Of a DNA stretch of 64,000 nucleotides, positions 3,734-7,611 are shown in pieces. The notes under the pieces are model-generated. The model was not told where the DNA came from. It ran no database searches and saw only the letters and a list, made by a program, of their open reading frames with translations. The position numbers and the translations under genes are program-made. The number at the start of each line of letters is the position of its first letter. Position 1 is the first letter of the stretch. This DNA comes from Terrirhizobium terrae (GTDB lineage Bacteria; Pseudomonadota; Alphaproteobacteria; Rhizobiales; Rhizobiaceae): contig NZ_CP104992.1 of assembly GCF_030323265.1 (NCBI RefSeq), forward strand, positions 1,959,501 to 2,023,500. The letters are read 5' to 3'.

Positions 3734-4423
3734 CTACCAGGACAACAGCCGGCCGCCAACCATGGCGCCGATCGCGGAGACGATGGCAACCGCCAGCGTG
3801 TACCAGATCGCCACGAAGGCTGCGCCGTCATTGACGCAGGCGATCGTATAGGCGAGCCCTCCGAGCGAGCCTGCAAGCAGTCCTACCAGCGCTCCGGCGC
3901 GGATCGGCCGTGTGGGAGCGCCGCGACGGATCGCGGAAAGCAGCAGCAACAGCGCGGGCAGGGATGCAAGCACGATCGCAGACACGCAATTGGGGATGGA
4001 CAGTGTTCTTGCGCCGGTGAGCGGAAATCCTGAAGGATCGAAGGCGAGGCCGACCAGCAGGAAGAGCGTGGCCGGCAAAAGCGCCTTGACCGGTGCGGTA
4101 GACAGTCCGGGTATGGCGGCATTCCGGACAAGAAGGCCTGCGCCGCCGGCCAGAAGCAGCATGGCCAGCACCTTGAACTGGAAGGTCCAGGTGAGGGCCA
4201 TGTCGATGAGTTCCGGGCGCGGGCCGATCACCAGCGCCACGACGGCAAATGCGCAGAGCAGGGCGATCACGATGCTGACGGGCAGGGCCAGGCGGAATGA
4301 CAGGCGCTCGAACAGCCCACGGGCAATAGGAGTTCCGCCGGCTTCGTCGGCCAGTGTGCGGATCAGGTCGTCTGTGGTCGGATTGATCAGATTGGAGGCA
4401 GTGGCGGTTTTCATCTGTGTCAT
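3734..4423 (-). CDS. nrsF: NrsF (DUF1109) membrane anti-sigma factor
   Basis: A 229-residue protein with a short soluble N-terminus (TTDDLIRTLADEAGG) followed by about six hydrophobic segments. This is the architecture of DUF1109/NrsF, the inner-membrane regulator that holds SigF-type ECF sigma factors inactive in Caulobacter. The ATG overlaps the stop of the sigma factor gene (ATGA overlap), so the two are translationally coupled. In Caulobacter, NrsF cysteines are important for signalling. Here a cysteine pair may be the one in SIPNCVS and the one in YTIACVND. The pairing with the sigma gene makes the call secure. Confidence 0.85.
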   Translation of the reverse strand: MTQMKTATASNLINPTTDDLIRTLADEAGGTPIARGLFERLSFRLALPVSIVIALLCAFAVVALVIGPRPELIDMALTWTFQFKVLAMLLLAGGAGLLVRNAAIPGLSTAPVKALLPATLFLLVGLAFDPSGFPLTGARTLSIPNCVSAIVLASLPALLLLLSAIRRGAPTRPIRAGALVGLLAGSLGGLAYTIACVNDGAAFVAIWYTLAVAIVSAIGAMVGGRLLSW

Positions 4424-4985
4424 CCTTCAAATCTCTTATGGGCGGCGGCCATCAATGTCTTGAGCGACCGATGGAATGCGACCCGTACGGCACCCTCGCT
4501 CATGCCCAGCTGTGACGCCGCTTCCCGAGGCGATGCGCCATCAAGGCCGATTGCCCGCACCACCGACTGCTGGCCCGAGGGAGAGCCGAAATCATCCGTT
4601 CGACATCGGCAGCGTTGTGCACGGGATCGGTGCCGTCCGATCCTGACAGGTCGGACCATTCATCGTCGGTCAGTTCGATCCGCAGGCGCACGTCCCGTCG
4701 CAGCCGTCGGGCCGTGTCGATCATCTTGTAGCGCGTAATGGCGTTCAGCCACGGCATCAGCGGACGTGAAGGGTCCCATTGGTCACGCTTGGAGTGCACG
4801 GCAATCAGCACGTCCTGCACCACATCCTCCGCCTCGGCGGCGCTGAGATGCAGGCGGGCGAGCCGCGCTCGGGCGATGTGGCGCAAAGAGACGGCGAATT
4901 CCCGCAGGAATGTTTCGTAGACAAGACGTTCGCCCCTGCGTTCGGCACACATCGCCTTCGCCCATGATTGCTCGCGCGTATTCAT
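4420..4985 (-). CDS. sigF: ECF RNA polymerase sigma factor, SigF type (frame broken by a 1-base deletion)
   Basis: The N-terminal frame from 4985 has region 2 (AEDVVQDVLIAVHSKRDQW and PWLNAITRYKMIDTARR). The C-terminal frame ending at 4420 has the region 4 helix-turn-helix (GASPREAASQLGMSEGAVRV). They join if one base is restored in the GGG run at 4579-4581, giving about 188 residues. The nrsF ATG overlaps the stop. An exact GTAACA-N16-CGAA promoter lies immediately upstream and suggests autoregulation. Its -10 element is only nine bases from this ATG, so the mRNA may be leaderless, or translation may begin at Met12. Confidence 0.85.
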
Positions 4986-4994
4986 GATGTCTCA

Positions 4995-5020
4995 TTCGAT
5001 TGGAGAAGGGAGGATGTTAC
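4995..5020 (-). promoter_or_regulatory. Putative SigF-dependent promoter of the sigF-nrsF operon
   Basis: Read on the minus strand the site is GTAACA, 16 bases, CGAA (-35 at 5020-5015, -10 at 4998-4995). This agrees with the GTAAC-N16-CGAA type of promoter that I recall for Caulobacter SigF. It faces the sigma gene whose own factor would read it, and its twin lies 67 bases away on the other strand. Confidence 0.65.
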
Positions 5021-5086
5021 GCGGCGACGGAAAAAATCTTGTCCGTTTCATCCGGCGAAGAAAACGGCACGGCGTGCGGCGGCCAT

Positions 5087-5112
5087 GTAACATCGGCCCG
5101 CATCGGTTCGAA
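5087..5112 (+). promoter_or_regulatory. Putative SigF-dependent promoter of the secreted hydrolase gene
   Basis: GTAACA at 5087-5092, exactly 16 bases, then CGAA at 5109-5112. It is identical in both boxes and in spacing to the promoter of the divergent sigma gene. The ATG of the downstream gene is 46 bases after the -10 box, which leaves room for the AAGGAG ribosome-binding site. Confidence 0.65.
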
Positions 5113-5158
5113 AGACTCCGGTGAAGCGCGTGCTTCATCACGAAAAGGAGCTAAGACG

Positions 5159-6034: not shown

Positions 6035-7611
<1,577 letters not shown>

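Follow-up and report, generated by a model that had tools for sequence, protein, structure and literature searches.

A predicted ECF16-type SigF-NrsF unit in Terrirhizobium terrae with a probably exported alpha/beta-hydrolase as its likely output

The closest described relatives of the locus reported here are ECF16 pairs of a sigma factor and a DUF1109 (PF06532) anti-sigma factor. SigF-NrsF of Azospira suillum is reportedly such a pair, grouped with BcrS-AbcS of Brucella. The anti-sigma family is described in print as six-pass membrane proteins, and the outputs of the published ECF16 systems considered here are methionine-sulfoxide repair or metal- or sulfur-related functions. DUF1109 anti-sigma factors keep their sigma factors in check, with two cysteines needed under dichromate or peroxide (PMC3511200, PMC3420878), and the ECF16 promoter consensus has been given as (T/C)GTAAC-N17-CGAA (PMC8315932). 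In Caulobacter crescentus, ECF16 SigF-NrsF controls CC3254-3257, CC2905-2907, and CC2748 from promoters of the form GTAACC-N16-CGAA; its outputs are DUF2282, DUF692, DUF2063, DoxX, and YedY-like proteins, and the word “hydrolase” is absent from the main text of that paper (PMC3511200). RpoE7-EcfR7 of Sinorhizobium meliloti, an ECF16 pair on pSymB, lies divergent to its target genes SMb20527-20530, and a reporter test showed no response of RpoE7 to peroxide, cadmium, or chromate (PMC6180224). The ECF16 pair BcrS-AbcS of Brucella melitensis uses TGTAAC / GCGAA-type promoters and, when exposed to HOCl, activates its own expression and that of an adjacent operon, with a methionine-rich peptide and MsrPQ-type repair as outputs; neither “hydrolase” nor “esterase” appears in the main text (PMC8315932). 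EcfF-OsrA of Bradyrhizobium japonicum is autoregulated and has a DUF1109 anti-sigma factor. Its mRNA starts 6 bases past the -10 element and overlaps the annotated start codon, which was moved downstream, and the one hydrolase named in the paper, a peroxide-induced putative epoxide hydrolase, is not said there to be an EcfF target (PMC3420878).

Here, we compare with these systems a three-gene block of T. terrae that lies in a window of 64,000 bases, by which we mean the whole stretch of DNA analysed (C1:1959501-2023500; the genome comprises 5.89 Mb on three contigs). The block consists of sigF and nrsF on one strand and, divergent from them, a gene for an alpha/beta-hydrolase (Table 1). The original prediction had named the first two as genes for an ECF sigma factor and an NrsF anti-sigma factor, and the profile matches to sigma region 2 and PF06532 bear this out. 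A DUF1109 gene directly follows the sigma gene, and the start of nrsF overlaps the end of sigF. The two NrsF cysteines are invariant in 10 of 10 aligned rows and stand 50 residues apart, as do C131/C181 of Caulobacter NrsF (PMC3511200) and Cys129/Cys179 of OsrA (PMC3420878), with which we equate them by this spacing rather than by alignment. The motif (T/C)GTAAC-N16/17-CGAA is found upstream of both the sigma gene and its presumed target, in a divergent layout like that of RpoE7 and with promoters like those of BcrS. By these anti-sigma, promoter, and cysteine features, rather than by ECF group models, the locus is classed from its sequence as an ECF16-type SigF-NrsF system. The NCBIfam equivalog AntiSigF_NrsF gave the window NrsF 63.8 bits vs. 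a cut-off of 300 bits. Classic SigF outputs (DUF2282/DUF692/DoxX or MsrP) were not found adjoining the sigma locus in the window, the other ECF16 loci of the genome having been read in part; the neighbours are instead the hydrolase, a protein that matches VTT weakly and below threshold, and guaA (by eye).

Table 1. Features of the sigF-nrsF-hydrolase locus, in window positions.
Feature	Position	Strand	Basis
ECF16-type predicted promoter facing sigF, GTAACA-N16-CGAA	4995..5020	-	Motif search; sigF-side site in 22/23 block loci
ECF16-type predicted promoter facing hydrolase, GTAACA-N16-CGAA	5087..5112	+	Motif search; GTAAN-N15/16-CGAA on hydrolase side in 22/23 block loci
Small inverted repeat GAAGC-GCGT-GCTTC, predicted 5' leader of hydrolase mRNA	5123..5136	+	Leader comparison
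Likely ribosome-binding site AAGGAG of hydrolase	5145..5150	+	Sequence by eye
Alpha/beta-hydrolase, 261 residues	5159..5944	+	Abhydrolase_6 1.5e-23; signal-like N-terminus by eye; putative triad Ser101-Asp213-His239
sigF, frame with sigma region 2	4500..4985	-	Sigma region 2 profile match 7.5e-10
sigF remainder	Other frame, to about 4420, overlapping nrsF start	-	Frame analysis
nrsF, anti-sigma family PF06532/DUF1109	3734..4423	-	PF06532 1.2e-36; Cys146 + Cys196

The original prediction for this locus was a pair of identical, outward-facing promoters of the Caulobacter SigF type. GTAACA-N16-CGAA does occur exactly twice in the window, the two sites point away from each other, and the motif agrees with the published Caulobacter consensus given above. 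The sites share their hexamer and tetramer, but their 16-base spacers are not the same. Dinucleotide shuffles of the window (n = 100) gave a mean of 0.04 matches, and none contained two; on this and on the conservation across block loci described below, we reject a chance origin of the pair. Across the genome, the looser GTAAC-N17-CGAA was found at 28 places vs. 52 for the reversed-pattern control. The looser motif is thus not enriched and most of its matches are apparently noise, and we set aside a wider regulon drawn from it. GTAACA was present at 5 of the 28 places, with ~5 expected from the base composition of the window, so the number of such sites is unremarkable and their location is what stands out. 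All five lie within ~2 kb of one of the genome's five nrsF genes, which are spread over four sigF-nrsF loci; two are the window pair, and the other three are independent of it. At another ECF16 locus of the genome (C2:349621-350892; L082, L018), two nrsF genes stand in tandem. GTAACA-N16-CGAA also precedes a gene near this tandem (C2:347747), whose product looks secreted and matches a YHS domain with a score that falls just short of the Pfam cut-off.

The -10 element on the sigF side ends 9 bases 5' of the sigF ATG in the window, and 9-11 bases from it in the 22 loci that have this site. With the 6-base distance of EcfF, the hydrolase mRNA would have a leader of ~40 bases and the sigF mRNA one of just a few, which makes a nearly leaderless sigF mRNA the prediction (window 4985-4995). 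A downstream sigF start codon, by analogy with EcfF, is unlikely because L070 and L073 lack the internal Met and the 22 sigF-side sites all keep their distance to the upstream ATG; unlike in EcfF, the upstream start looks conserved. The predicted hydrolase leader contains an inverted repeat, GAAGC-N4-GCTTY, that is conserved in homologous leaders ~10 bases past the -10 element, with a loop that seems shorter in L070 but longer in L073. The stem is kept, with 93.8% of cells paired, but none of 13 distinct rows showed a two-sided change, and pair types were no more numerous than in shuffles. On this basis, we regard the repeat as a candidate element that may act as RNA or as DNA.

To place the locus among its relatives, we gathered 23 block loci in which the hydrolase stands beside sigF-nrsF, drawn from plasmids, species genomes, and sampled genomes. 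Fourteen plasmid records matched and 10 were taken in (H2, H3, H5, and H7 were left out), the species genomes gave 11 loci, 10 of them with the hydrolase, and L033 and L069, which we treat as one contig, were counted once. By their site sequences, 18 loci are distinct, many of the Agrobacterium-type loci being close copies. Relatives with the same three genes but no motif would have spoken against the original prediction; instead, both sites (as GTAAN-N15/16-CGAA) are present in 21 of the 23 loci (16 of 18 distinct). The exceptions are L073, which has no sigF-side site, and L075, whose hydrolase side reads GTTTC instead of GTAAC. The trio was found on Agrobacterium plasmids and in Pararhizobium, Rhizobium, Neorhizobium, Shinella, and other Rhizobiales, as well as in two members of other alphaproteobacterial orders, Arenibaculum pallidiluteum (Rhodospirillales) and Neoroseomonas alba (listed under Acetobacterales), in a genome of another family of the same class (G553), and in a MAG labelled Stenotrophomonas. 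The nearest named relative found was Rhizobium sp. NFR07 (L064), at 86% DNA identity over 6.1 kb. Matches to nrsF and the hydrolase stood side by side only in the T. terrae genome and G169 among 199 genomes sampled from the family, and only in the T. terrae genome and G553 among 385 sampled from the class, at the cut-offs used. These few cases indicate that the block is sparse, and it is often plasmid-borne.

The motif did not extend to the sampled hydrolases that stand alone. Nine homologues (L076, L077, L078, and L086-L091) were chosen from the stronger matches; they are 49-67% identical to the window protein, and 6.0-8.5 kb of sequence at each contained no match to sigF or to nrsF. The motif was absent from all nine 300-base upstream regions. 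In 18 of the 23 block loci (e.g., L054 and L075), a TCAC-N6-GTGA dyad sits between the promoters, just 5' of the -35 element that faces the hydrolase, which suggests that a second regulator may act there. The dyad is absent from the window and also stands 5' of the unlinked hydrolase in L076. Such a regulator would suit an explanation in which shared descent alone has left the hydrolase beside sigF, its expression comes from another promoter or regulator, and the promoter-like site is due to chance or a relic; that the hydrolase is broken in 4 of the 23 loci (L021, L056, L062, and L069) could be read the same way. However, the hydrolase-side site is kept in all block loci but one, across two deep hydrolase lineages, and was missing from all nine unlinked homologues, and we consider this explanation very improbable.

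Conversely, other ECF16-type loci did not have the hydrolase. No window-type hydrolase was found in 3.6-8.6 kb around each of 19 other nrsF loci or at three nrsF loci besides these. From 37 matched genomes, four loci were read for their neighbours, and none had the hydrolase. Two divergent GTAAC...CGAA sites were nevertheless present in 11 of the 19, two of which are S. meliloti strains with near-identical loci. This indicates that an outward promoter pair is ordinary for such loci and that only the hydrolase partner is unusual. One such pair is at L092, which we infer to be the RpoE7 locus from its position on pSymB and its promoter sequence; the related locus L095 encodes DUF2282 and DoxX proteins. 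Another sigF-nrsF pair, that of R. etli p42f, has an annotated alpha/beta-hydrolase-fold gene ~2 kb from its sigF, cut by the end of the stretch (L093 1-296); these 296 bases had no match to the window hydrolase or to the second hydrolase described below at E 0.01.

Trees of the two regulatory proteins agreed with this division. The hydrolase-linked NrsF sequences form one clade (support 100/99; 19 rows vs. 18 others, including S. meliloti pSymB, which places the NrsF of RpoE7-EcfR7 outside the clade, and R. etli p42f), as do the hydrolase-linked SigF sequences (support 98/96; 19 rows vs. 13 others). L058, L059, L062, and L071, although counted among the 23, were left out of both trees. Because the linked rows were gathered with linked queries, these clades set the linked type apart but need not consist of linked members alone. 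L107 (G848:C6) encodes a truncated NrsF of the hydrolase-linked kind, with no sigF or hydrolase match in 6 kb, and a 66-residue Ancylobacter fragment (L074), which has neither hydrolase nor motif, was too short for the tree. The hydrolase tree (17 of the 23 linked and 12 unlinked; L021, L056, L059, L062, L069, and L071 were left out as broken or near-duplicate) contains two deep lineages, one with Sec-like starts (the window, L064, L073, L075, and the unlinked L076) and another in which most members have RR-containing, Tat-like starts. Linked and unlinked members are intermixed, so a hydrolase clade cannot serve as proof of linkage, and the enzyme evidently also exists without the SigF of the block. 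The simplest reading of these trees would be an old, lasting association of one sigma/anti-sigma branch with a hydrolase family, some copies of the enzyme standing alone.

The sigF frame of the window is interrupted between regions 2 and 4, whereas both regions lie in a single frame in the closest relative, NFR07. This interruption is probably an assembly error. The guaA frame (window 6241-7611) also looks broken by eye, and the two interruptions together suggest indel errors in the assembly, which is 91% complete. Across the block loci, sigF matches were whole and without a stop in 19 of 23, NFR07 included; the gene is fragmented in the window, L021, and L072, and has a stop in L066, where it is possibly broken, while nrsF is in pieces or has stops in L058, L062, and L072. 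A second, diverged copy of the block, with both promoters present, lies on contig C2 of the same genome. It resembles the window copy at 52% in nrsF, ~60% in sigF, and 51-57% in pieces of the hydrolase in several frames; its hydrolase is broken, and its sigF is interrupted at about the same place as in the window. A programmed frameshift could explain why both copies break at about the same codon, but given the 19 whole sigF genes, it is less likely than an assembly error.

An interrupted sigF also allows for a unit that is a relic under cross-control, its promoters real but served mostly by a different ECF16 sigma factor in that cell. The genome's four sigF-nrsF loci make cross-recognition possible, and the other C2 locus uses the same GTAACA-N16-CGAA. 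Still, the whole sigF of most block loci, closest relative included, the company that the hydrolase keeps with its own sigF and nrsF clades, and the apparent frequency of frame breaks in this assembly (guaA, and 60 gap openings in 6.1 kb vs. NFR07) argue against a dead sigF, and we think such a relic unlikely.

The hydrolase itself was placed by profile and fold searches in the hydroxynitrile lyase / SABP2 methylesterase / PytH group. Its AlphaFold model (pLDDT 83) matched these folds at a TM of ~0.7 and E values of 1e-12 to 1e-14 among the 50 matches listed. Ser101, Asp213, and His239 do not vary among the 10 hydrolases compared and may form the Ser-Asp-His triad usual for an SABP2/HNL-type fold, a triad that we take from conserved residues rather than from a superposed active site. 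Despite the shared fold, the protein is only ~20% identical to the methylsalicylate esterase SABP2, hydroxynitrile lyase, and the pyrethroid hydrolase PytH and, unlike them, carries a signal-like N-terminus. As this N-terminus appears Sec-like by eye, the enzyme is probably exported.

Taken together, we consider it likely that the locus is an ECF16-type (SigF/NrsF) signalling unit with this probably exported hydrolase as its dedicated output, since the same arrangement in distant bacteria suggests that the enzyme is the dedicated product of the switch. In such a unit, NrsF would hold SigF at the membrane until an oxidising or thiol-reactive signal, read by its two conserved cysteines, released the sigma factor. 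SigF-RNA polymerase would then fire both outward promoters, one amplifying sigF-nrsF from an almost leaderless mRNA and the other producing the hydrolase, which would leave the cytoplasm through its Sec-like start in the window type or its Tat-like start in the Agrobacterium type and may cleave an ester-like or cyanohydrin-like substrate. Given the lack of response of RpoE7, the inducer of the window system cannot be assumed from other ECF16 pairs. It is also conceivable that the hydrolase is part of the sensing step, for example by making or removing a ligand that frees SigF. Its adjacency and divergent promoter would permit such feedback, and genes co-transcribed with ECF factors often tune them, as does SMc01418, although that gene is co-transcribed rather than divergent (PMC3511301). 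However, the ECF16 anti-sigma factors studied respond through their own cysteines (PMC3420878, PMC3511200), and the ECF16 locus L095 has other genes in the divergent position, so a role in sensing seems improbable next to a role as output.

What sets the locus apart from the published ECF16 systems considered here is the hydrolase output, not the divergent promoter pair. Among the matches listed in the literature that we searched, and for that search only, we found no description of an ECF16/NrsF system with a window-type hydrolase output or of its clade and spread. Neighbours of chlorite dismutase include alpha/beta-hydrolase families and a DUF1109 anti-sigma factor (PMC9751292); the window-type hydrolase may or may not belong to those families. 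A clade that keeps the hydrolase as divergent partner, with both promoters, across distant bacteria points to envelope damage or chemical attack being answered enzymatically. More speculatively, and with little confidence, we suggest that this separate, ancient ECF16 branch might respond to a redox or chlorine trigger by releasing exported methylesterase-like enzyme in a burst, which would destroy or activate an ester or cyanohydrin made by a host or competitor. Envelope chemistry, in place of methionine repair or metal binding, would then be the answer to oxidative attack by a plant or rival. Because the unit is small (two promoters and three genes), its inducer and substrate should be directly screenable, and it supplies a clean target gene with which to study the signal that the NrsF cysteines detect.

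The block is longer on Agrobacterium-type plasmids and on C2, where it goes on with a second hydrolase (Abhydrolase_3), an SDR, HxlR and TetR regulators, and an MFS transporter, none of which accompany the window copy. This extension would fit a detoxification role. The second hydrolase is in two pieces on C2, and in L063 (4821-7139) an IS3-like ISRm1 transposase gene splits the second hydrolase gene of an Agrobacterium-type cluster.
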